Program-made: the position numbers and the translations under genes
Shown here: piece by piece, positions 6,681 through 18,478 of the stretch
Position numbering within the stretch: the first letter of the stretch is position 1
Layout: every line of letters starts with the position of its first letter
Assembly: GCA_017461445.1 (NCBI GenBank)
Contig: JAFTXW010000019.1
Location: 1-64,000 of the forward strand
DNA: 64,000 bases
Direction: 5' to 3'
Origin: Oscillospiraceae bacterium
Lineage (GTDB): Bacteria > Bacillota > Clostridia > Oscillospirales > Oscillospiraceae
The notes under the pieces: generated by a model
What the model was told of the DNA's origin: nothing
Seen by the model: only the letters and a program-made list of their open reading frames with translations
Databases searched by the model: none

Positions 6681-6822
6681 TTCGTAGAAAGACTACCACC
6701 CGCTATGCGGGTGAGCCGGAAAAAGTTTTACTTATGCCCAGAAAATAAACCTCCCGATGACAGAGTGAAAACAGGTTTGCCGACCGTTTACAGACAAGAT
6801 CAAGGGGAGGTTATTTAGAGCG
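6681..6822. mobile_element. Palindrome-rich remnant, possibly an IS200/IS605-type end
   Basis: The stretch holds a sharp hairpin ACCCGCTATGCGGGT (within 6698-6713) followed by an interrupted inverted repeat AATAAACCTCCC (about 6745-6756) and GGGAGGTTATT (about 6805-6815). Subterminal hairpins of this kind are typical of IS200/IS605 elements, but no transposase is left. The IS5-type element was inserted immediately after it. Confidence 0.3.
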
Positions 6823-7702
6823 TATCTGAAAACATAGTATATTTGTATCATTTCAACAGAATCCAAATAGAAGCCAGATGAAGGAACGCCATGAAGGACA
6901 CAGCCAGCTTGTCGTAGCGCGTAGCAACCCTGCGAAAAACTTTGAGTTTATTGAAAAAGCACTCGATCAAGTGTCTTTCTTTGTAGGTATGAAAATCGCA
7001 AAACCACGGCTCAATAACATTGCTCTTCGGAGGAATCGTATACGATGCGCCCTGCTCGGTGATATAGGCACGGATTGAGTTGGTTCCGTGTGCTTTGTCA
7101 CCCCAAATATTGCTGCCGCTAATCTCAACTTCTGAGAGCAGATCAATGGCTGCACTTGCATCAAAGATGTTTCCGCCAGTAAGCATGAAATGGACAGGAT
7201 TACCCAAAGCATCCACAATGGCGTGGACTTTAGTAGTCTTTCCGCCGTGACTTACGCCGATAAACTGGTTTTTTTCCCGAATTTATAGCCCCTTTTTTGC
7301 CCCCGCACTCTGCGGATGCGCTTTGATGGATGTGCTGTCAATACACAGGTTCTCGCAGTTCGCATCTGCGTTCAATTCTTGAAAAATGCGCAAAAGAGTG
7401 CCGTCGTCGCGCCACTTGCAGAATCGACTGTATACGTTCTGATGCGGATCGAACTGTGCCGGGATATCTGCCCAGGCTGCTCCACTTCTGGCTAGCCAGA
7501 ACATTGCGTTCAGTATCATCCGGTCATCCTTGGGCGGCCTGCCGGTCTTGGCTCGGGGGATCATATCCTTGATTTTCTCCCACTGGGCATCGCTCAATTC
7601 GTAGCGTCTGGCTGCCATAGGATCGCCTCCGTACTTTTTCTTTTAGTCTACCACATTTGGTGCTTTTGTGCAATTTTTATATGATTTTTGCGTTTTCAGA
7701 TA
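6823..7702 (-). mobile_element. IS5-family insertion sequence (about 880 bp)
   Basis: The element is bounded by inverted repeats TATCTGAAAAC (6823-6833) and GTTTTCAGATA (7692-7702) and encodes one minus-strand IS5-type transposase frame that is broken by a stop. Length and two-part coding layout fit the IS427/IS1031 subgroups. A few extra bases may belong to each end, and the target duplication could not be fixed by eye. Confidence 0.8.
6848..7618 (-). pseudogene. IS5-family transposase interrupted by an in-frame TAA
   Basis: The N-terminal half (7618-7283) starts MAARRYELSDAQWEKIKDMI and carries the first catalytic Asp in CIDSTSIKAHPQSAGAKKG. The same frame then hits TAA (7285-7283) and continues without a shift as IREKNQFIGVSHGGKTTKVH, giving the second Asp (IWGDKAHG) and the Glu (RHLIECFFNKLK). 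Both halves are in the same reading frame, so this is a nonsense interruption and not the programmed frameshift used by many IS5 relatives. All three DDE residues survive, but the product is probably inactive unless the stop is read through or a second copy supplies transposase. Confidence 0.8.
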
Positions 7703-7782
7703 GACCCCAAATGGACTTGATGCTTATAGCACAATCTCCGAGAGATAGAGATCCATTCAAAAGAAAAGTTATCCAATGAAGC

Positions 7783-7811
7783 TTGACACAGGCTGAAAAT
7801 CCGAATATAGT
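7783..7811 (+). promoter_or_regulatory. Promoter of the LytTR/GHKL pair
   Basis: TTGACA (7783-7788) and TATAGT (7806-7811) are separated by 17 bases, 36 bases before the GTG start of the regulator. This is close to the housekeeping consensus. Confidence 0.75.
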
Positions 7812-7846: not shown

Positions 7847-8554
7847 GTGCTGCGTATTGCCATTGTAGACAATGATCTGGATGCCTGCGATCAGATGCAG
7901 ATATTTATACGCCGCTATGCCCGCAGCGAAGGCCTGGACATCACAACGGATGAATTTGACAGGGCGGACAAATTCCTTTCCCAGTATAAGCCTGTGTACG
8001 ATGTGATCTTCATGGGTATCGAAATGCCGGGCCTGGACGGTATGGAGGCAGCAAAGCGGCTGCGGAAAAAGGATACCGATGTGGTGCTGGTATTTGTAAC
8101 GGGAATGGCCCGGTATGCTATCCGTGGGTATGAGGTGGATGCGCTGGACTTTGTGTTAAAGCCGCTGAATTACTATGCCTTCTCCATCAAGCTGGAACGC
8201 GCCCTCCAACGGGTTCGCCAGCGTGCGGGAGAAAACGTCATTTTAAAGACCTCCGAAGGCGTCCGGCGCATCGATCTGCGCCAGATCTATTATCTGGAGA
8301 CAAAAAGCCGGATGCTTTACTATCACACCTCCACCGGCGTGTATTCCGTAAGAGGAACGCTGCAAAGCGCGGAGGAGATGCTGGCAGAGTATTCTTTTGC
8401 AAAGTGCAACCAGTGCTATCTGGTTAATCTGCAGCATGTAACAGATGTGCGGGATGACTGCGTTGTGGTGGCAGGAACGACATTGGAGATCAGCAGAAGA
8501 AACAAAAAATCCTTTTTGTCGGCCGTGGTGGCGTACATAGGAGGCGTAAGATAA
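7847..8554 (+). CDS. LytTR-family response regulator with a receiver lacking the phospho-acceptor Asp
   Basis: A 235-residue regulator of AgrA/LytR architecture: receiver domain (about 1-120) and LytTR DNA-binding domain (about 133-235, with YYLETKSRMLYYHTS and the end ISRRNKKSFLSAV). Acidic pocket residues (IVDNDLD, Asp8 and Asp10), the switch Thr (FVTGMA) and the Lys of LDFVLKPLN are kept. The phospho-acceptor, expected in DVIFMDIEMPG, is Gly57 (DVIFMGIEMPG; codon GGT where GAT is expected). The protein is therefore unlikely to be switched by normal Asp phosphorylation. GTG start with GGAGGGG upstream. It overlaps the partner kinase gene by one base and probably regulates the neighbouring glycoside locus or itself. 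Confidence 0.88.
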   Translation: MLRIAIVDNDLDACDQMQIFIRRYARSEGLDITTDEFDRADKFLSQYKPVYDVIFMGIEMPGLDGMEAAKRLRKKDTDVVLVFVTGMARYAIRGYEVDALDFVLKPLNYYAFSIKLERALQRVRQRAGENVILKTSEGVRRIDLRQIYYLETKSRMLYYHTSTGVYSVRGTLQSAEEMLAEYSFAKCNQCYLVNLQHVTDVRDDCVVVAGTTLEISRRNKKSFLSAVVAYIGGVR

Positions 8555-9831
8555 TGAAAGAGAATCTGCTATCCATATTGCTCAGTGCCATTGTGCTTTT
8601 CGGTGCGGGACTGGTATATATCCTCCCGCTGCGCAAACGGGAAAAGTGGGTGCGCTGGCTGCCGGTGATGTTTCTCCTGAACTTACATTGCATGTGGCTG
8701 AATTATGAGCTGGGGGAAGCCTGGTGGGTTTTGGGGCAGCTGCTGCACTATCTCTGTGCGATATTCATGGTAAACCGCTGTACCAAGCTTGCCTGGCCTG
8801 GCGCATGCTACTGCGCGGTGTGGATCTGTGTCACAGGAGAAATGGTCCATGAATTGTGGATCGTCTTTTCCCAGTATATCCCGGAACTTCATACTCAGCT
8901 TTGGGCGCAAGACCTGTCACTGCTCATTTTCTCGACAGTTTGCTATCTGCTGCTCTTCTGGACTGTGGCCCGCTGGATGCCCCGGGGCGATATCTATCAG
9001 ATCGGCCCACGTCAGCTGTTCAGTGCTTTTTTGCTCGGCAGCATGTGCGTTACGATGGCAAATTATTTTCTGGTGCCCCATGAACGTGACGATACGCTGT
9101 CCGTGATCTTTGTCCTGTGCCAGATCTACTGCGTTTCCCTTTTGTATTTGCAGACGGAGCTCTTTAAAAAGAGTGAGATGCAGAAAGAGTTGGATGCGCT
9201 GAATTTTCTGTACAGCTGCGAGCAGGAGCAGTACGATATGGCCTGCCAGAATATCCGCATGGTAAACCGCAAGTGCGAAGAGCTGGAGCAGACCATTGGA
9301 CAGATGCAGCAGTACCTTCCCGATGCGGTCCGCCAGGAGCTGAAGCGGCCCATGGATGACGCAATGCGGGCCTGCGACACGATGGTGGAAAGCGGAAATG
9401 GTGTGCTGGATATTGTTCTGACCGAAAAAAAGCTGCTAGCAGAAACAAGCGGCATTCAGATCAACTGTGTGGCAGACGGAAAATTGCTGGATTTTATGGA
9501 AGTTGTGGATATCTACGCGGTGTTCTCCAACGCGTTGGATAATGCCATCGAGGCGGTCCGCAGGCTTACAGACGCGGATCAGCGTCTGATCGATCTATTG
9601 GTCTACGAATCTCAGAATTTCCTTGTGATCAACATCTCCAATCCGCTGATGGAGTCGGTTCGGTTCGAGGAAAACCTGCCTGTTACCACCAAAGCCAGGA
9701 ACAGCTTCCATGGATACGGACTGCGTGTTCTTGCCCGCGCAGTGGAAAAATACCAGGGTATGTTTACCGTGGAGGCGAAGGGCGGCTTCTTCACCTTGAA
9801 GGTGCTGATCCCTCTGCCACAGAAGGAATAA
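8554..9831 (+). CDS. GHKL-family sensor protein (AgrC-like) lacking the phospho-acceptor His
   Basis: A 425-residue membrane sensor: about six hydrophobic segments in residues 1-200, a coiled-coil dimerisation region, and a C-terminal ATPase fold with N-box NALDNAIEAV and G-box HGYGLRVLARAVEKYQG. In relatives the dimerisation helix reads NxKCHDLKHQI; here it reads NRKCEELEQTI, so the His is Glu242 and the following D-x-K is changed too. ATP-binding motifs remain. With the partner regulator also lacking its Asp, the pair probably signals without a classical phosphorelay, or by direct contact. Start ATG overlaps the regulator stop (TAATG). Ligand unknown. Confidence 0.88.
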   Translation: MKENLLSILLSAIVLFGAGLVYILPLRKREKWVRWLPVMFLLNLHCMWLNYELGEAWWVLGQLLHYLCAIFMVNRCTKLAWPGACYCAVWICVTGEMVHELWIVFSQYIPELHTQLWAQDLSLLIFSTVCYLLLFWTVARWMPRGDIYQIGPRQLFSAFLLGSMCVTMANYFLVPHERDDTLSVIFVLCQIYCVSLLYLQTELFKKSEMQKELDALNFLYSCEQEQYDMACQNIRMVNRKCEELEQTIGQMQQYLPDAVRQELKRPMDDAMRACDTMVESGNGVLDIVLTEKKLLAETSGIQINCVADGKLLDFMEVVDIYAVFSNALDNAIEAVRRLTDADQRLIDLLVYESQNFLVINISNPLMESVRFEENLPVTTKARNSFHGYGLRVLARAVEKYQGMFTVEAKGGFFTLKVLIPLPQKE

Positions 9832-9840
9832 AATGATATT

Positions 9841-9886
9841 ACACCGGGATTTGTGAACTTTTTACAAATCCCGGTGTATTCTTTTT
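9841..9886 (+). terminator. Terminator after the sensor gene
   Basis: ACACCGGGATTTGT (9841-9854) pairs perfectly with ACAAATCCCGGTGT (9864-9877), then ATTCTTTTT. It separates the regulator pair from the GH3 gene. Confidence 0.85.
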
Positions 9887-9936
9887 GACATCGGATGACC
9901 GAATGTTCAAAAAAAATTACCAGATTTCCCATTTTG

Positions 9937-9965
9937 TTGAAAGGGCGATAGAAAAAGAATATAAT
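9937..9965 (+). promoter_or_regulatory. Strong promoter of the GH3 gene
   Basis: TTGAAA (9937-9942), 17-base spacer, TATAAT (9960-9965). The leader of about 120 bases can form a TCCATGG/CCATGGA hairpin just before the AAAGGAGG ribosome site. Confidence 0.8.
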
Positions 9966-10093: not shown

Positions 10094-13000
10094 ATGCGTA
10101 ACAAGAAACCCGCACTGTGGCGAGGCCTGACCAGCGTATTCTGTATCATTCTTGCCCTGTCCCTGATCCTGGGTAGTGTTCTGGAAGCCAATGCCGGCAC
10201 CATCGACACCTATCTGGGCACTCTGAGTTCCAGAACCGTTTCTGAGAACCCCGAGGATCTGTACACCAAGTATAAGCCTATCGACGATGTCCTGAACGAG
10301 GATGGTACCGGTAATTCCACCGCCCTTATCCAGGCTGCCATCGACCTGGGCCGCCGTGAGGCTGCCGAAGGCGCGGTTCTGCTGAAGAACAATGGTGCGC
10401 TGCCTCTGTCCGAGGGCGACAACATCACCATGCTGGGCATCCGTTCCCACATGAACCTGCTGGGCTCCAGCTTCGGCGTTAAGGCACAGGGTGTTTACAT
10501 CTCTCTGGAGCAGGCTCTGTCTCAGAACGTTACTGACTTTGCGCACACTATCGCTCAGAGTGCTGGCTCCGCTTACAGTGCCGGTGGTCCTACCATCAGC
10601 GGCTGGAGTGGTCAGGAGTTCGAGTTTGACGGTGCCGGTCTGAACCTGAACCAGACTATGATCGACATCTACGAGAACCTGAACACCAACGTTTACAAGC
10701 ACATTGAAAACGAGGGTGCTGCTGAGGTCTATAATCCCGGTGAACCTTCTCTGAATGAGATTGCCGGTGTCAACCCCAACTATAAGGACAGCTTCGCTGA
10801 GTACGGTGACGCAGCCATCGTCGTCATCGGCCGCGCCAGCTGTGAGTCTGTTGACTACATGCCCGGCGGTGTTGCCGAGGGTCTGGGCTTCGAGCACGGC
10901 GAGCCCCTGTCTCTGACTCAGAATGAGCTGGATGCCATCGAGCTGGCTAAGGAAGCTTCCGACAAGGTCATTGTCCTGATTGCTTCTTCCTCTTCCGTTG
11001 AGATCGGCACCCTGAAGAACGACCCCGAGGTCGATGCCATCATGTGGATCGGTGCTGTCGGCTGCTACGGCAACCTGGGTATCGCTGATCTGCTTGTCGG
11101 TAAAGTCAGCCCCTCCGGCGGCCTGTTCGATATCTTTACCGCTTACAACATGTCTGCACCCGCAATGCAGAACTTCGGCCGTCTGTACTATGCTAACTCC
11201 AGCGAAGTCACCCGTTCCGGCGGTGTTATGGGCTTCACTCCCGGTGCTTACGCCATTGAGGCTGAGGGCATCTACGTTGGCTACCGCTACTATGAGACCC
11301 GTTACTACGACGCCGTTGCTGGTGTCCACAATGCTTCCTCCGCCAAGGGTGCTTACGCTACCTCTGACGCTTGGAGCTATGCCGACGAAGTTACCTACGG
11401 CTTCGGTTACGGCCTGAGCTACACCACCTTCGACTTCGACATGGGCGAGCCCGTTTGGGAGCGCGAGATTGCCGAGGACGGCACCCCCAATGTTTATGTT
11501 ACCTTCCCCGTGACCGTTACCAACACCGGTAAGGTCGCTGGTAAGACCCCTGTGCAGATCTATGGCCAGGCTCCTTACTATGAGGGCGGCGTAGAGAAGT
11601 CCGCTATCCAGCTGCTGAACTTCGAGAAGTCCAGTGTTATCGAGCCCGGTCAGTCCGAGGTCGTTAATGTTAAGGTTGACATGCAGTACATCGCGTCTTA
11701 CGACATGGAGTACAAGAATGCTGACGGCACCCAGGGCACCTACATCCTGGATCCCGGTGACTATTACTTCGCAGTCGGCAACGGCGCACACGACGCTCTG
11801 AACAACATCATGGTTGCTCAGGGCATGGATGAGACTCTGATGGTCGGCACCGGTGACGAGACCGCTGTCCACATGGAGAACATCACCGAGAACTTCATCT
11901 CCAAGACCGCATTCTCCATCTCCAAGACCGGCTACCAGATCTCCAACCAGATTCCTTACTCCGACTGGAACTACTACCAGCCCGGTGAGGTCACCTACCT
12001 GTCCCGTGCTGATTGGGAGGCAACCTGGCCCAAGCAGTACCACAACATGACCATCACCAGCACCGAGCTGTTCGACCACCTGAACGGCAAGTACTATACC
12101 CTGCAGACCGGCGACGACACCTCCTCTGTCACCTGGGGTGTTGACCATGGCATCCACATCACTGATATGTATGGCGTCGCTTACGACGATCCTAAGTGGG
12201 ATGAGTTCCTGGAGCAGCTGACTTTGGAAGAGGCAATGTACATCTTCTCCTTCGGCGGTCCCTCCATCCCCGGTGCAGAGTCCATCGGTGCTGTTGAGAC
12301 CTACATGACCGAGAACGCCGGTAATGGTGTTGCCGTTGCTCTGAACGCATCCAAGGATCCCGACGCTCCCTGGGCCATTACCGCTGCTGATCCCAACGGC
12401 AACTGGCATCCCGAAGTCTTTGGCAGCGCACCTCTGGGTGCTTCCACCTTTAACCCCGAGCTCATGTATGAACTGGGTGCCTTTACCGGCCTGGAGTCCC
12501 TGTTTACCGGCATCAACATTCTGTGGGGCCCCGGCCTGAATACCCACCGTCACGCTTATAACGGCCGTAACGGCGAGTACTACTCCGAGGATCCCATCCT
12601 GTCCGGCGTTGCCGCTATGGAATTCGCCATCGGTGCTTCCGAGTATGGCCTGATCGCCGCTCCCAAGCACTTCGCATTCAACGACCAGGAAACCGACCGC
12701 GGCGGCGTGTCCCCCTGGATGACCGAGCAGAGAGCCCGTGAAGTTGAGCTGCGTGCTTATCAGTATGCATTCGAGGCTACCAAGTATGATACCGAAGCGT
12801 ACAACGCCGGTATGCGCGGCCTGATGACCTCCTTCTCCAAGATCGGCGGCGTGGAGTGCACCTGCTCCTACGGCCTGATGACCGAGATCCTGGCTAACGA
12901 GTGGGGCTTCATTGGCTACGCCGTTACCGATATCTACGACGATACCGACCTGTGGGCTTCCGTCCTGAACTCCGGTACCACCTGCTTCGATACCCGTGGC

Positions 13001-13750
13001 CAGTCCGGCTTCTACTCCACCACTACACTGTCCAGCTGCTTCCTGTTCACCAACCAGATCAATGAGGGCACCGGGCTGAACTCCAACTTCATTAATGGCG
13101 ATGTGAACCTGCAGGCTAAGCTGAAGGAAGCTGTCCACAAGAACATCTTCGCATGGTCCGAGTCCCACCTGATGAACCGCTATGCCGGTGAGACCCATAT
13201 CGAACAGCTGATGCCCTGGTGGCGTACTACCTACTATGCTGCAATCGGCATCTCCGCTATCCTGATGGTTCTGAGTGCTGTCATGTACGTCATGGGCTCC
13301 AAGAAGGAGAAGGTCGCTCCCGCCGGTAAGGCTGTTACCATTGTGAACATCCTCGCTGCTGTCCTGGGCATTGTTGGTGTTGTCGCTACCTACGTCTGCA
13401 GCACCATCAGCACGGATAATGCAATGGTCTCCCTGACCTCCTGCCTGGTGGCTGGTATTGTTGGTGTTGTTCTGGCTGTTGTTGGCGGCATCATGGCTTC
13501 CAAGAACGACCTGGTCCGTACCATTTGCAGCCTGGGCTCTATTGCCACCTACATGTTCGTTTTGAGCAACCTGATCAGCGAGCGTGTCATGCTGGTTGCT
13601 GGTCTGTTCTCCTACAATGCTGGTAACACCGTTGGCTGGCAGGTCTTCTATGTGACCATCGTCGCCGGTGTCGCTATGCTGCTGGCATCCATCGTTGTCA
13701 TTATTGGCAGCTTCATGAAGGGTGCTAAGAAAGCTGACGTTGCTGCTTGA
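10094..13750 (+). CDS. Membrane-anchored GH3 beta-glycosidase with inverted domain order
   Basis: A 1218-residue enzyme expected to release beta-linked sugars at the cell surface. Order: N-terminal membrane helix (about 10-32), GH3 C-type alpha/beta domain (about 80-440, REAAEGAVLLKNNGALPL), Fn3-like domain (about 465-570), then the GH3 TIM barrel (about 710-980) with GLIAAPKHFAFNDQETDRGG and the nucleophile Asp946 in GYAVTDIYDD, and finally four hydrophobic segments (about 1045-1215). In ordinary GH3 enzymes the barrel comes first; the swapped order is known from ruminococcal beta-glucosidases such as that of Ruminococcus albus. Codon use is strongly biased, suggesting high expression. Own promoter; AAAGGAGG precedes the ATG. 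Substrate (glucoside, xyloside) not determinable. Confidence 0.88.
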   Translation: MRNKKPALWRGLTSVFCIILALSLILGSVLEANAGTIDTYLGTLSSRTVSENPEDLYTKYKPIDDVLNEDGTGNSTALIQAAIDLGRREAAEGAVLLKNNGALPLSEGDNITMLGIRSHMNLLGSSFGVKAQGVYISLEQALSQNVTDFAHTIAQSAGSAYSAGGPTISGWSGQEFEFDGAGLNLNQTMIDIYENLNTNVYKHIENEGAAEVYNPGEPSLNEIAGVNPNYKDSFAEYGDAAIVVIGRASCESVDYMPGGVAEGLGFEHGEPLSLTQNELDAIELAKEASDKVIVLIASSSSVEIGTLKNDPEVDAIMWIGAVGCYGNLGIADLLVGKVSPSGGLFDIFTAYNMSAPAMQNFGRLYYANSSEVTRSGGVMGFTPGAYAIEAEGIYVGYRYYETRYYDAVAGVHNASSAKGAYATSDAWSYADEVTYGFGYGLSYTTFDFDMGEPVWEREIAEDGTPNVYVTFPVTVTNTGKVAGKTPVQIYGQAPYYEGGVEKSAIQLLNFEKSSVIEPGQSEVVNVKVDMQYIASYDMEYKNADGTQGTYILDPGDYYFAVGNGAHDALNNIMVAQGMDETLMVGTGDETAVHMENITENFISKTAFSISKTGYQISNQIPYSDWNYYQPGEVTYLSRADWEATWPKQYHNMTITSTELFDHLNGKYYTLQTGDDTSSVTWGVDHGIHITDMYGVAYDDPKWDEFLEQLTLEEAMYIFSFGGPSIPGAESIGAVETYMTENAGNGVAVALNASKDPDAPWAITAADPNGNWHPEVFGSAPLGASTFNPELMYELGAFTGLESLFTGINILWGPGLNTHRHAYNGRNGEYYSEDPILSGVAAMEFAIGASEYGLIAAPKHFAFNDQETDRGGVSPWMTEQRAREVELRAYQYAFEATKYDTEAYNAGMRGLMTSFSKIGGVECTCSYGLMTEILANEWGFIGYAVTDIYDDTDLWASVLNSGTTCFDTRGQSGFYSTTTLSSCFLFTNQINEGTGLNSNFINGDVNLQAKLKEAVHKNIFAWSESHLMNRYAGETHIEQLMPWWRTTYYAAIGISAILMVLSAVMYVMGSKKEKVAPAGKAVTIVNILAAVLGIVGVVATYVCSTISTDNAMVSLTSCLVAGIVGVVLAVVGGIMASKNDLVRTICSLGSIATYMFVLSNLISERVMLVAGLFSYNAGNTVGWQVFYVTIVAGVAMLLASIVVIIGSFMKGAKKADVAA

Positions 13751-13961: not shown

Positions 13962-15884
13962 ATGAGAAAAGAGCAACTGCTCAATAACAACTGGCTGTTC
14001 CGCTACCATGACGGTACGGAAATACCTGTAAATATTCCTCATACCTGGAATAACATTGACGGTCAGGATGGCGGCAATGACTACTGGCGGGGCACCTGCG
14101 TCTATGAAAAGATCTTCTCCGCACCCGAATTCGGTGCGGACGAACGTGTTTATCTGGACTTTTCGGGCGCAAACGCCTCTGCAAAGGTCATTCTCAACGG
14201 TTCTACCGCCATGACCCATGACGGCGGCTACTCCACCTTCCGCTGCGATGTGACGGAGCTGCTGAAGCCTGAAAATAAACTGGTGGTGGAGGTTGACAAC
14301 TCCGTCAACGACCGTGTGTACCCCCAGAAGGCTGACTTTACTTTCTACGGCGGTATCTACCGTGACGTGAAGCTGATCGTGGTAAATCAGCATCACTTTG
14401 ATTTGGATTATTTCGGCGGTCCCGGCATCGCCGTTCATGCAGAAGTAAAGGACAAGGATGCCCACGTTTGGGTCCGTACTTGGCACAATGCCAAGAACGG
14501 CACTGTTTCCATCACCCTGAAGGATGCCGAGGGCAATGTGGTTGCTTCCGGTAAGGGCACCGATACCGATATCGAGATCAAAAATGTCCATCTATGGGAT
14601 GGCCTCGATGATCCCTATCTCTACACCTGCGAAGCAGTTCTGACCGTAAACGGCGAAGCTGTGGATATGGTGTCCACCCACTTCGGTGCCCGGTATTACC
14701 ATGTGGATCCCCAGAAGGGATTCTTCCTCAACGGCCGCAGCTATCCTCTCCGTGGTGTCTGCCGCCATCAGGACTGGAAGGGCCTGGGCAATGCTATTGG
14801 CAAGGAGCAGCACGATATCGATATGGCCATGATCCGGGAGATCGGTGCCAATACCATCCGCCTTGCCCATTACCAGCACGACCAGTATTTCTATGATCTG
14901 TGCGACAAGTACGGCATGGTGGTCTGGGCGGAGATCCCCTACATCTCCGAGCACCTGCCCAACGGCCGTGAAAACACCATCAGCCAGATGAAGGAACTGA
15001 TTATCCAGAACTATAATCATCCTTCTATCTGTGTCTGGGGTATCTCTAACGAGATCACCATCTCCACCAAGGACAATAAAGACATGCTGGACAACCATAA
15101 GGTCCTCAATGACCTGATCCATGAAATGGATCCCAGCCGTCCTACCACCCTGGCCTGCTACGCCATGTGCGGCCCCTTTAATCCTGTGGCCCACAAGGTG
15201 TCCGATATCGTCAGCTGGAACCTGTACCTGGGCTGGTATGTGCCCGGCATGTTCCTGAATGACCTGTGGGTGGATTTCTTCCATAAGGTTTACCCCGACC
15301 GCTGCCTTGGTTACTCCGAGTACGGCTGCGAGTGCATGCCCAATCTTCACACCTCCCATCCTAAGCGTGGTGACCAGAGTGAAGAGTATCAGTGCCTGTA
15401 CAATGAGTACATGCTGAACTTCTTCGAGAAGCGTCCCTTCATGTGGGCCACCCATCTGTGGAACATGTTCGATTTCGCGGCAGATGCCCGGAATCAGGGC
15501 GGCGAGCCCGGCATGAACCACAAGGGCTTGGTGACCTTTGACCGGAAGACCCGTAAGGATTCCTTCTACGTCTACAAGGCTTGGTGGACCAAGGATCCCT
15601 TCGTCTACATCTGCGGCCGCCGCTATGTGGACCGTCCCGAGAAGGAGACTTCCGTCAAGGTCTATTCCAACCTGCCTGAGGTCACCCTCTATGCCAACGG
15701 CCAGAAGGTCGCTACCCAGAAGGGCGATAAGGTCTTTACCTTCAAGGTACCCCTGAGTGGGGAAGTGAAGCTGGAGGCTGTTTCCGGCAACTGCCGGGAT
15801 GAGATCGCCATCCGCTATGTGGACACGCCCAATCCTGCCTATAAGCTGGGCAAGGACGGAGGCAACGGCGGCAACTGGACCTGA
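13962..15884 (+). CDS. GH2 glycoside hydrolase (beta-galactosidase/beta-glucuronidase type)
   Basis: A 640-residue cytoplasmic enzyme (no signal peptide). The sugar-binding jelly roll (about 1-180), an Ig-like domain and the TIM barrel (about 270-560) follow the GH2 order. The acid/base is Glu364 in WGISNEIT and the nucleophile Glu453 in GYSEYGCEC. The C-terminal block HLWNMFDFAADARNQGG and the NHK triplet in GMNHKGLVTFDRK are shared by Firmicutes beta-galactosidases; an NxK triplet is also the sugar-carboxylate clamp of beta-glucuronidases. Neighbouring symporter and UxuB-like dehydrogenase favour a glucuronide or galacturonide-type substrate, but this is inference. AGGAGG lies 5 bases before the ATG. 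Confidence 0.85.
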   Translation: MRKEQLLNNNWLFRYHDGTEIPVNIPHTWNNIDGQDGGNDYWRGTCVYEKIFSAPEFGADERVYLDFSGANASAKVILNGSTAMTHDGGYSTFRCDVTELLKPENKLVVEVDNSVNDRVYPQKADFTFYGGIYRDVKLIVVNQHHFDLDYFGGPGIAVHAEVKDKDAHVWVRTWHNAKNGTVSITLKDAEGNVVASGKGTDTDIEIKNVHLWDGLDDPYLYTCEAVLTVNGEAVDMVSTHFGARYYHVDPQKGFFLNGRSYPLRGVCRHQDWKGLGNAIGKEQHDIDMAMIREIGANTIRLAHYQHDQYFYDLCDKYGMVVWAEIPYISEHLPNGRENTISQMKELIIQNYNHPSICVWGISNEITISTKDNKDMLDNHKVLNDLIHEMDPSRPTTLACYAMCGPFNPVAHKVSDIVSWNLYLGWYVPGMFLNDLWVDFFHKVYPDRCLGYSEYGCECMPNLHTSHPKRGDQSEEYQCLYNEYMLNFFEKRPFMWATHLWNMFDFAADARNQGGEPGMNHKGLVTFDRKTRKDSFYVYKAWWTKDPFVYICGRRYVDRPEKETSVKVYSNLPEVTLYANGQKVATQKGDKVFTFKVPLSGEVKLEAVSGNCRDEIAIRYVDTPNPAYKLGKDGGNGGNWT

Positions 15885-15967
15885 TTTCTGCCGTCATTGC
15901 AGAAATTGTATGAGTTTCTCCGGTGCGTTTGCCGGTTCGTAATGACATTCTTTTAGGAGAGATTACT

Positions 15968-17512
15968 ATGAGTGAAAACACTGGCCTGAATCGTGCCAAA
16001 ATGTACCAGCTGGCACTGTTCCCCCTGAACAATGGCGCGACCAACGTTTACTTTGTCCTGATCCTTAGCTATGTTGCCAGCTTTGGCTCCAACGTGCTGG
16101 GTATCGTTGCCGTTTTTGCCGCTATGATGGTCACCGGTATGCGTGTCTTCGATGCCATTACCGACCCCATCATTGGCGCGCTGATGGACAAGACCAATAC
16201 CAAGTTTGGTAAGTTCCGTCCCTTTATGGTCATCGGTAACGCCATCATGGCCGTTTCCGTGATCCTGCTGTACATGGTCACCCCTGCCATCCCTGAGACA
16301 ATGATGTGGGCCCGTTACGCGGCCTACATCGTGCTGTACGCTGTGTGGGTCATCGGCTATACCTTCCAGACCTCCGTTACCCGCGCTGCGCAGCCCGTTC
16401 TGACCAATGACCCCAAGCAGCGTCCCCTGTTTACCATCTTCAACACCATCGGCTCCCTGGCCGGCATGGGTGTTATGCAGGCCATCGGCCCCATCCTGGC
16501 TGGCGATGCCTTTATCGGTGACTATAACGCTCAGTGGTATGCGGTCATGACCCCCATCGGAATCTGCGTGTCTGTGGTTCTGACTATCCTGGCCATTATC
16601 GGTATCGCGGAGAAGGACAATGAGAAGTATTTCGGCATTGGCGGCGGAACCCAGGAAGCTGTCAAGGTTTCCGAGTACATCCAGATCATCAAGGCCAACA
16701 AGCCCCTGCAGCGACTGATGGTTGCCGGCGGCGGTTGCAAGCTGGCTATGTCCATCGGTACAAATATGACCGTTCTGATCATGCTGTATCAGCTGATGAT
16801 GGGCAACTATGACGGCCTGTACCTTCCCATGATGATCCTGGGCTATGTCTTCGCTGTTCCTTTCTTCGTTCTGACGGTTCAGACCTCTCAGAAGAAGGGT
16901 CAGAAGGCCAGCCTTATGACCTATGTTGGCGTGGCACTGGCCTGCTACGTTGTTGTCCTGATCCTGTTGCTGCTGTGGAATCCCAATAACCCCAATTTTA
17001 TGCTCTGCATCATGAAGGACGGCAAGTTCGCCATCAACCTGTATACCATCGTGTTTATCCTGTTCTTCGGTACCGGATACGGTGCTTACTATGCTACGGC
17101 TGACATGCCCATCCCCATGGTTGCTGATTGTGCCGACTATGAGACCTACCGCTCCGGCAAGTTTATCCCCGGCATCATGGGTACCCTGTTCTCTCTGGTT
17201 GACAAGCTGGTTTCCTCCCTGTCTGCCACCGTTGTTACCGTTGCTCTGCTGTTCATTGGTGTTGACTACCTGCCTTTGAAGACTTCTCCCTATGTGGAAG
17301 GCATGAATTGGGTCGTCATCTTCCTGTTCTGCGGCATTCCCATGATCGCATGGGCTCTGTCTCTGGTCTCCATGAAGGGCTATGAACTGGACGGCAAGCG
17401 TGTCAAGATCATCAATGCTGTCAACGCTGCCCGTAAGGCTGCCATTGCAAATGGTATGTCCATGGAAGAAGCCATGGCTACCATCAATGACGAAAATGTC
17501 GAAGTAAAGTGA
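15968..17512 (+). CDS. GPH-family sugar:cation symporter (MFS)
   Basis: A 514-residue transporter with about twelve hydrophobic segments. Hallmarks of the glycoside-pentoside-hexuronide family are FDAITDPIIGALMDKTNTKFGKFRPFM near the N-terminus and MPIPMVADCADYETYRSGKF in the second half. It probably imports the glycoside split by the GH2 enzyme. The ATG at 15968 is chosen because TTAGGAGAG lies 6 bases upstream; an in-frame start at 15923 precedes that ribosome site. Two hairpins follow the stop. Codon bias matches the highly expressed GH3 and GH2 genes. Confidence 0.88.
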   Translation: MSENTGLNRAKMYQLALFPLNNGATNVYFVLILSYVASFGSNVLGIVAVFAAMMVTGMRVFDAITDPIIGALMDKTNTKFGKFRPFMVIGNAIMAVSVILLYMVTPAIPETMMWARYAAYIVLYAVWVIGYTFQTSVTRAAQPVLTNDPKQRPLFTIFNTIGSLAGMGVMQAIGPILAGDAFIGDYNAQWYAVMTPIGICVSVVLTILAIIGIAEKDNEKYFGIGGGTQEAVKVSEYIQIIKANKPLQRLMVAGGGCKLAMSIGTNMTVLIMLYQLMMGNYDGLYLPMMILGYVFAVPFFVLTVQTSQKKGQKASLMTYVGVALACYVVVLILLLLWNPNNPNFMLCIMKDGKFAINLYTIVFILFFGTGYGAYYATADMPIPMVADCADYETYRSGKFIPGIMGTLFSLVDKLVSSLSATVVTVALLFIGVDYLPLKTSPYVEGMNWVVIFLFCGIPMIAWALSLVSMKGYELDGKRVKIINAVNAARKAAIANGMSMEEAMATINDENVEVK

Positions 17513-17595: not shown

Positions 17596-17623
17596 TAACT
17601 CCAGTTAAAACGAGGTGCGAATT

Positions 17624-18478
17624 ATGCAGAAAAATGTACTTGCCACCGATCTGACCGGAAAGGTGGCTGTTGTTACCGGCGCGGGCGGTGTCCTGTGCAG
17701 CTACCTGGCCAAGGTTCTTGCCCGGGCTGGCGCAAAGGTGGCTCTGGTGAACCGCAGTGATGCTGCCATCAATCAATATGCAGCGGAGATCATCGCCGAA
17801 GGCGGCATCGCAAAGGCCTACAAAGGCAATGTGCTTATCCGAGAGGACATGGAGCGGATCGCAGACGAGGTCCTTCGTGACTTGGGTCCCTGCGATATTC
17901 TTCTGAACGGCGCGGGCGGTAATAACGCCAAGGCCCAGACCGATAAGGAATACTATGAGACAGGTGACCTGGAACGGGAGGATATCAAGACTTTCTTTGA
18001 CCTGGACGACGACGGCGTGAATATGGTCTTTGACCTAAACTATAACGGTACGTTGATTCCCACTCAGGCCTTTGCCAAGCACATGATCCGGTCTGGCGGC
18101 GGTAATATCATCAACATTTCCTCTATGAATGCCTTCCTGCCCCTGACCAAGATCCCTGCCTACTCCGGTGCAAAGGCAGCGGTTTCTAACTTTACCCAGT
18201 GGCTTGCGGTGCATTTCAGCAAGTGCAATATCCGGGTAAACGCTATTGCGCCCGGATTCTTTGCCAGTAAGCAGAATCAGGCACTGCTGTTCAACGAGGA
18301 CGGCACTCCCACTGCAAGAACGCAGAAGATTCTGGCAGGCACCCCCATGGGACGCTTCGGCAAGACCGAGGATCTGGCTGGCGGCCTGCTGTTCCTGCTA
18401 GATGACAATGCCGCAGGCTTTATCACCGGCATTGTCCTTCCCATTGACGGCGGCTTCTCTGCTTATTCCGGCGTATGA
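17624..18478 (+). CDS. SDR-family oxidoreductase, UxuB-like D-mannonate/fructuronate oxidoreductase
   Basis: A 284-residue Rossmann-fold dehydrogenase. The cofactor loop is TGAGGVLCSYLA, the catalytic triad is Ser in INISSMNAF with YSGAKAA (Tyr-x-x-x-Lys), and the C-terminus has the usual VLPIDGGFSAYSGV. The insert NGAGGNNAKAQTDKEYY and TFFDLDDDGVNMVFDLNYNG closely recall the SDR-type D-mannonate oxidoreductase of Bacillus (YjmF/UxuB), which reduces D-fructuronate in hexuronate breakdown. The ATG at 17624 follows CGAGGTG by 7 bases; an upstream GTG (17615) is part of that ribosome site. Last gene of the glycoside locus. Confidence 0.82.
   Translation: MQKNVLATDLTGKVAVVTGAGGVLCSYLAKVLARAGAKVALVNRSDAAINQYAAEIIAEGGIAKAYKGNVLIREDMERIADEVLRDLGPCDILLNGAGGNNAKAQTDKEYYETGDLEREDIKTFFDLDDDGVNMVFDLNYNGTLIPTQAFAKHMIRSGGGNIINISSMNAFLPLTKIPAYSGAKAAVSNFTQWLAVHFSKCNIRVNAIAPGFFASKQNQALLFNEDGTPTARTQKILAGTPMGRFGKTEDLAGGLLFLLDDNAAGFITGIVLPIDGGFSAYSGV

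Follow-up and report, generated by a model that had tools for sequence, protein, structure and literature searches.

Two-component pairs of the AgrC/AgrA type (HPK10/LytTR), for example ComD/ComE, are among the closest described systems to the one analyzed here, a LytTR response regulator gene and an adjoining GHKL membrane sensor gene at positions 7847 to 9831 of a 64,000-nucleotide stretch of Oscillospiraceae bacterium DNA (assembly GCA_017461445.1, contig JAFTXW010000019.1; the whole stretch is called the window). The window pair resembles them in its domains and in having a direct repeat ahead of a −35 element, but it has neither the phospho-acceptor His nor the phospho-acceptor Asp, and its receiver acidic pair is broken. 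The pseudo-receivers HP1043, ChxR, NblR and CmrT, as described in parts of the review PMC12632262, are like the window regulator in that the Asp is missing and the acidic pair has a non-acidic residue in second place; the operon partner in the window differs in being a sensor that is also without its His. In the published passages that describe them, the pseudo-histidine kinases DivL and ChrS(CA-fs) share with the window sensor the absence of kinase chemistry, but feed phosphate-competent partners, whereas the regulator adjoining the window sensor has no phosphate site. LytTR Regulatory Systems (LRS; HdrRM and BrsRM), in the parts of PMC6193735 that set them out, consist of a LytTR regulator encoded upstream of a membrane inhibitor, with direct repeats before the promoter, and use no phosphotransfer, as is proposed here for the window pair. 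By the same parts of that source, LRS regulators are without receivers and LRS membrane proteins without kinase domains, whereas the window pair has a receiver and a GHKL domain and thus falls outside the LRS definition.

The reading that we prefer, with about even confidence, is that the regulator is a phosphate-free LytTR protein and that the former kinase has been retained by two genomes as a membrane partner without catalysis and was discarded in a third. Pseudo-receivers are put at ~6% of bacterial receivers, and His sites at missing in 0.9% of HisKA domains, in parts of PMC12632262; sections 4, 6, 7 and 18 of that review contain no figure for the GHKL class without His. The review (2025), in the same portions, calls pseudo-receiver switching a mystery and counts 2 non-orphans among 20 described, and the word LytTR is absent from its text. 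No operon pair without both phospho-sites was found in open-licence PMC titles and abstract beginnings, among the matches listed. Pseudo-receivers and pseudokinases are each known; what appears to be new is that a single operon has both, while canonical orthologues occupy the same locus. The degenerate regulator, the degenerate sensor and a probable target promoter are found together, and canonical relatives occur at the same kind of locus, which allows components to be compared and exchanged between the phosphate-dependent and the phosphate-free form of one switch. The features of the pair are as follows.

7847..8554, + strand: LytTR response regulator with a pseudo-receiver (235 amino acids, GTG start, intact open reading frame).
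7868..7873, + strand: receiver acidic pair, D8-N9 here and E/D-D in canonical relatives (alignment).
8015..8017, + strand: codon GGT for Gly57, in the position of the phospho-acceptor Asp (context DVIFMGIEMPG).
8554..9831, + strand: GHKL membrane sensor without phospho-acceptor His, a pseudo-histidine kinase (425 amino acids, intact open reading frame, HATPase_c_5 81.4 bits).
9277..9282, + strand: E242-E243 replacing the H-box His-Asp (aligned to KCHDLKHQI).
9496..9813, + strand: GHKL ATPase domain with the N box SNALDNAIE and the G box HGYGL kept (domain search, alignment).

The regulator scored 53.9 bits for Response_reg and 58.6 bits for LytTR. In the alignment, the Gly57 column is Asp in two solved receivers and in 105 of 111 distinct regulator rows, which bears out the placement of Gly57 at the phospho-acceptor position in the initial annotation, a model's reading of the sequence alone. 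The six other rows comprise three with Gly (the window open reading frame whole, the same frame cut, and a roe-deer orthologue), one with Ala (rabbit), one with Glu (L030) and one that is cut off. The 111 regulator and 101 sensor rows (regulator frames >150 amino acids, sensor frames >180 amino acids, identical sequences counted once) are from loci fetched by similarity and are no random census. The initial annotation was wrong in holding all other receiver residues to be kept: the acidic pair is damaged (Asn9), and T85 and K105 do remain. With G57 and N9 the window regulator is a pseudo-receiver in the usual sense, a receiver fold without at least one of the five active-site residues, and it has Gly57 in place of the acceptor Asp of a canonical two-component receiver. 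The receiver fold is kept in its structure model (predicted local distance difference test score, pLDDT, 89.5), which matched receivers and for which the top structural match was full-length ComE (4cbv, E 1.2e-14, TM 0.49–0.55); the model predicts the same domains as 4cbv in a different arrangement. A shift of the K+2 receiver position to activating residues, an idea taken from parts of PMC12632262, was considered and showed no pattern (Leu107 in the window, Pro in roe deer, Phe in rabbit, Val or Leu in canonical relatives). Separately, a LytTR-type regulator at L030 49–849 (genome G085, same genus) has Glu at the Asp57 position and an Asp-Gly acidic pair; by its residues it is a separate pseudo-receiver, possibly phosphomimetic.

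The sensor has Glu242, as the initial annotation stated, where His occupies the H-box site in 98 of 101 distinct sensor rows; the other three rows are those of the window (EE) and rabbit (TQ) and one that is cut off. The H-box alignment held 58 rows, the window being counted twice, and rows <90 bits or up to 300 amino acids were dropped. The second conserved His, four residues past the H-box site, is Gln in the window sensor; at that downstream position the rabbit sensor, like canonical relatives, still has a His. No His is present within window sensor residues 205–300, so the displaced acceptor that the initial annotation had named as a possible refutation was not found there. Its statements that the N and G boxes remain and that both frames are long and intact hold in the alignment and in the open reading frames. 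The pair thus has the canonical architecture, receiver-LytTR plus transmembrane-GHKL, without the canonical sensor His, and the sensor is a pseudo-histidine kinase, that is, a kinase homologue without a residue needed for autophosphorylation (E242). Its structure model, with helices across residues 2–252, was of low confidence (pLDDT 59.3) and was set aside as too weak for use.

Relatives were sought by scanning contigs with two peptide patterns, which gave 16 relatives, and by genome searches. Across the genus (136 genomes, its own included, many incomplete) there was just one other match above 45% identity, in genome G058: L085, on contig JAFTVM010000025.1 of a roe-deer colon metagenome-assembled genome (MAG). 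The roe-deer regulator is 74% identical to that of the window, has Gly57 by a different Gly codon and has Tyr9 in the acidic pair; the sensor is reduced in frame to ~71 residues, beginning with a hydrophobic segment and ending in a tail that aligns over 34 residues, at 53%, with residues 390–423 of the window sensor (E 1e-9). The whole pair is present in a rabbit MAG (L086, CANRFA010000061.1), with a 52% identical regulator carrying Ala57, D8-P9 and K105S and a 50% identical sensor in which Thr-Gln replaces His-Asp and the ATP pocket is altered in part. Wider searches under strict limits took in the order (394 genomes, E 1e-65), the class (391 genomes, E 1e-75) and the family of G737 (197 genomes, E 1e-80); these groups were sampled, best matches only became loci, and no more Asp-less regulators were seen among the loci inspected, which numbered 14 for the class and the G737 family.

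The double residue loss is real. An assembly error or a strain-specific mutation was rejected: two other assemblies have the loss, and the three other LytTR regulators of the window genome (L001, L003 and L004) all keep Asp. The possibility, raised in the initial annotation, that this strain alone might differ fails on Gly57 in roe deer and on Ala57 with Thr-Gln in rabbit. Its picture of a co-evolved, matched loss stands as far as the loss is common to relatives; the partners are, however, not strictly co-dependent, because the roe-deer genome retains a Gly57 regulator beside a sensor remnant. The window, roe-deer and rabbit regulators formed one clade with support 100/97 in a 60-row regulator tree (regulators scoring 170 bits or more; one row is a near-copy of the window). 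In a tree of 21 hand-picked rows with the trait columns removed, the support for the three was 100/99 for the concatenated alignment and 98/97 for the regulator alone, and the window and rabbit sensors grouped at 99 in a quick tree of 57 rows that carried long-branch warnings.

Canonical orthologues were found at the same kind of locus. A GH2 (glycoside hydrolase family 2) gene lies beside the pair in 9 of the 14 family-level regions first fetched (the five without it are L128–L130, L132 and L133); all nine regulators have Asp57, all nine sensors, which are the same genes as L101–L108 and L117, have His, and canonical relatives have 43–56% identical regulators. Since these nine GH2-adjoining pairs keep Asp57 and His, both location and sequence make ordinary two-component systems the orthologues of the phosphate-free pair. 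Four sister-lineage sensors have kept the His and have had the N and G boxes destroyed, and their regulators keep Asp57.

L087, 1045–2382: sister sensor, His kept, ATP pocket lost (Lachnospiraceae bacterium NK3A20).
L088, 8659–10035: sister sensor, His kept, ATP pocket lost (close to L089).
L089, 8721–9980: sister sensor, His kept, ATP pocket lost (close to L088).
L162, 9235–10500: sister sensor, His kept, ATP pocket lost (L162/L135, from genome G737).

These four and the three loss-carrying rows join at 99/99 in the concatenated tree with trait columns removed. The L089 sensor is seemingly broken near its C terminus (two tblastn pieces). In another genome (G1382; L173 and L174), an Asp57 regulator with a CNQC contact loop accompanies a sensor in which HD is replaced by HA and the N-box GNA by SIT; no GH2 match was seen near that locus, just a distant GH3.

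Ratios of nonsynonymous to synonymous substitution (dN/dS) were calculated from Nei-Gojobori counts with our own script. For the regulator, the comparison of selection that the initial annotation had proposed gave purifying selection between two Gly57 genomes, window and roe deer, at 0.125 (dS 1.38), with 0.111 for the receiver and 0.132 for the LytTR domain; constraint thus acts on the Gly57 regulator, its receiver part too, and no more weakly than on canonical pairs (receiver 0.079–0.483, LytTR 0.066–0.345, sensor 0.335–0.504; six pairs, one receiver value saturated). The GH3 gene of the locus gave 0.208 between the same two genomes. For the sensor, window versus rabbit, dN/dS was ~0.20 overall (a rough value) and 0.11 over residues 206–300, at saturated dS of 2.4 and 3.3.

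A putative regulator site was located between the pair and the glycosidase genes, and was compared with the DNA-contact loop of the regulator.

9898..9929, + strand: putative regulator site, direct repeat ACCGAATGTTC / ACCAGATTTCC with a 21-bp period (found by eye, then tested).
9937..9965, + strand: glycosidase promoter-like site TTGAAA, 17 bp, TATAAT.
8396..8416, + strand: LytTR DNA-contact loop FAKCNQC (canonical orthologues: FVRCNHW in six of nine; others FARCNHW, FVRCNYW and FTRCNYW).
7783..7811, + strand: regulator promoter-like site TTGACA, 17 bp, TATAGT (11 of 12 positions of the sigma-70 consensus, by consensus match only).

All nine canonical GH2 regions carry an RCCACWT direct repeat of exact 21-bp period, once each, before the glycosidase promoter; L162 and L166 stand outside these nine promoters, and their boxes were read by eye. 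The seven-row clade has variant boxes (ACCGAATGTTC and ACCAGATTTCC in the window) with the 21-bp period kept and box 2 starting 18 or 19 bp before the −35 element. Among six wider-clade promoters (L089 excluded as nearly identical to L088), the boxes were 68% and 76% pairwise identical versus 26% for the spacer, a contrast reached by 0 of 20,000 column shuffles. The loop reads FA(K/R)CNQC in 7/7 members of the chemistry-defective clade, and in the aligned AgrA loop, FFRCHNS, residues R198, N201 and S202 touch DNA according to parts of PMC4227749. The clade boxes and the loop both differ from the canonical ones; site and DNA-contact loop have thus changed together, with the spacing retained. 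Erosion of the operator in the loss-carrying genomes was considered and dropped, since the sister lineages share the contact loop and have a variant box of a comparable kind (RCC...TNC). LRS are autoregulated (parts of PMC6193735), whereas the repeat here was seen only before glycosidase genes in the nine canonical regions, with a pattern that is unable to match the variant boxes of the window and with no systematic search before the window regulator.

Read at a fixed distance from box 2, the glycosidase −10 element is TATAAT in all three loss-carrying genomes and, in the canonical regions, TAAAAT or TACAAT in eight of nine and TATGAT in the ninth (L131); this is suggestive of a strengthened glycosidase promoter in the loss-carrying genomes, as judged from few, related rows. 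The regulator promoter matches the consensus at 11 of 12 positions in the window, 11 in roe deer, 6 in rabbit and 7 to 10 in canonical orthologues, and the idea that the loss is marked by a strong regulator promoter was thus not borne out.

On the preferred reading, the lineage would have given up His-Asp phosphotransfer, and the pair's switch probably works without phosphate. The sensor would be unable to phosphorylate anything; the regulator would bind the two-box site just upstream of the glycosidase −35 element and activate without phosphate, its activity depending on how much of it is present and on protein contact. The surviving sensor of the window and rabbit genomes would most likely be a membrane partner without catalysis, keeping hold of the regulator or letting it go by contact, a role likened to that of the membrane inhibitor of an LRS. 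In roe deer, with the sensor deleted, the regulator would act alone, and this genome suggests that the sensor is dispensable. A precedent is ComE, a LytTR regulator of which the D60A form, in parts of PMC12323615, activates its promoter in a kinase deletion if constitutively expressed, the D60E form being more active.

Several points weigh against this reading. A pure inhibitor role leaves the kept ATP pocket of the sensor unexplained. Both loss-carrying relatives are MAGs, that of roe deer being listed at 8% contamination, and the window genome is a 61-contig assembly. The boxes were placed by eye before the conservation test, and with the three loss-carrying promoters alone 1470 of 20,000 shuffles reached the box contrast, which is not significant. 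The regulator-only tree gave the wider seven-row clade no support (58/8). The dN/dS of the regulator is higher between roe deer and rabbit (0.338), and that between window and rabbit is saturated. The near-consensus regulator promoter is not special and lends no extra support to level control. The roe-deer locus is without the sensor and most of its GH2 gene, and the locus may itself be decaying.

A broader version, in which the whole two-component lineage turned phosphate-free, is put forward tentatively, as somewhat doubtful. The chemistry would have been dismantled by different routes, and the regulator, the operator and mostly the membrane partner would have stayed under selection, signalling by direct contact. 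The routes would be loss of the Asp in three gut genomes, two of them also losing the His and the third most of the sensor, and loss of the ATP pocket in four others.

Slightly less likely again, though the most serious competitor, is that the sensor is a functionless vestige, still undeleted in window and rabbit, and that the regulator alone is a constitutive activator controlled by its level. The roe-deer genome, which keeps regulator and GH3 without a sensor, the 11 of 12 consensus matches of the window and roe-deer regulator promoters, and the ComE D60A precedent (parts of PMC12323615) are all in keeping with this. The sensor frames, however, are open in both window and rabbit at just 50% identity and with the low, if saturated, dN/dS values given above, and a functionless gene would be expected to be broken over such divergence unless the His was lost recently and separately in each.

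The remaining alternatives are all improbable. One is that the sensor acts in trans as a pseudokinase paired with another kinase of the cell, the regulator not being its target. In its favor, the window genome has three LytTR genes and six HATPase_c_5 matches besides those of the pair, and the ChrS pseudokinase heterodimerises with HrrS (parts of PMC9491836); against it, the usual site of the adjoining regulator cannot take phosphate, and the two genes have stayed side by side at the locus where canonical orthologues lie. Equally hard to favor is a move of the input to redox, by which a CxxC in the contact loop (C187-N-Q-C190, 8405–8416) would sense oxidation or metal and set DNA binding. The loop is shared by all seven chemistry-defective clade members, the aligned AgrA position, C199, forms a regulatory disulfide with C228 (parts of PMC4227749), and redox control is known for other pseudo-receiver regulators (parts of PMC12632262); but the CNQC loop also occurs in six Asp57 regulators outside the clade (L067, L090–L093 and L145) and in L173, and may set only DNA specificity. 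Ordinary decay, with both genes having lost function together and being on their way out, is likewise improbable: it accords with the roe-deer sensor remnant and fragmentary GH2 and with an insertion sequence (IS)-like element upstream of the window regulator, but not with the intact frames in window and rabbit, the strong purifying selection that the window and roe-deer comparison shows for the regulator, or the retained DNA-contact loop and site spacing.

The genes that follow the pair, and a hairpin that separates them from it, are as follows.

9841..9877, + strand: terminator-like hairpin with a T-rich run after it, separating the pair from the glycosidase genes (read by eye, unscored).
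10094..13750, + strand: GH3 family glycosidase, putative target (1218 amino acids; an 83% identical orthologue lies next to the roe-deer regulator).
13962..15884, + strand: GH2 beta-glucuronidase-like glycosidase, putative target (NF050095 558.7 bits, under the cut-off of 950; at nine canonical loci).
15923..17512, + strand: GPH-type sugar:cation symporter, putative target (MFS_2 over cut-off; gph 142 bits, under the cut-off of 231).
17615..18478, + strand: D-mannonate oxidoreductase-like protein of the hexuronate pathway (PRK08277 418.8 bits, cut-off 281).

These adjoining genes resemble a gut glucuronide-utilisation set, and from the gene content the pair probably belongs to a hexuronide utilisation locus, the substrate being probably a beta-glucuronide. 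The rabbit region also has a mannonate dehydratase gene (over cut-off), a polyol/fructuronate reductase-like gene (below cut-off) and a partial glucuronate isomerase-like gene (below cut-off, at the contig edge), and a similar hairpin lies 3′ of the rabbit sensor. In the roe-deer genome, GH2 is down to 56 aligned residues (L042 312–479), beside an intact regulator and an intact GH3. One gut polysaccharide utilization locus listed in parts of PMC5320581, Ros-7 (arabinoxylan), likewise combines a LytTR regulator and a histidine kinase with a GPH transporter. The IS-like element of the window spans 6813–7712, with 21-nt inverted ends that are 81% complementary and two adjacent minus-strand open reading frames (6848–7216 and 7283–7618) that by eye resemble transposase parts; it ends ~70 bp before the TTGACA of the regulator promoter.

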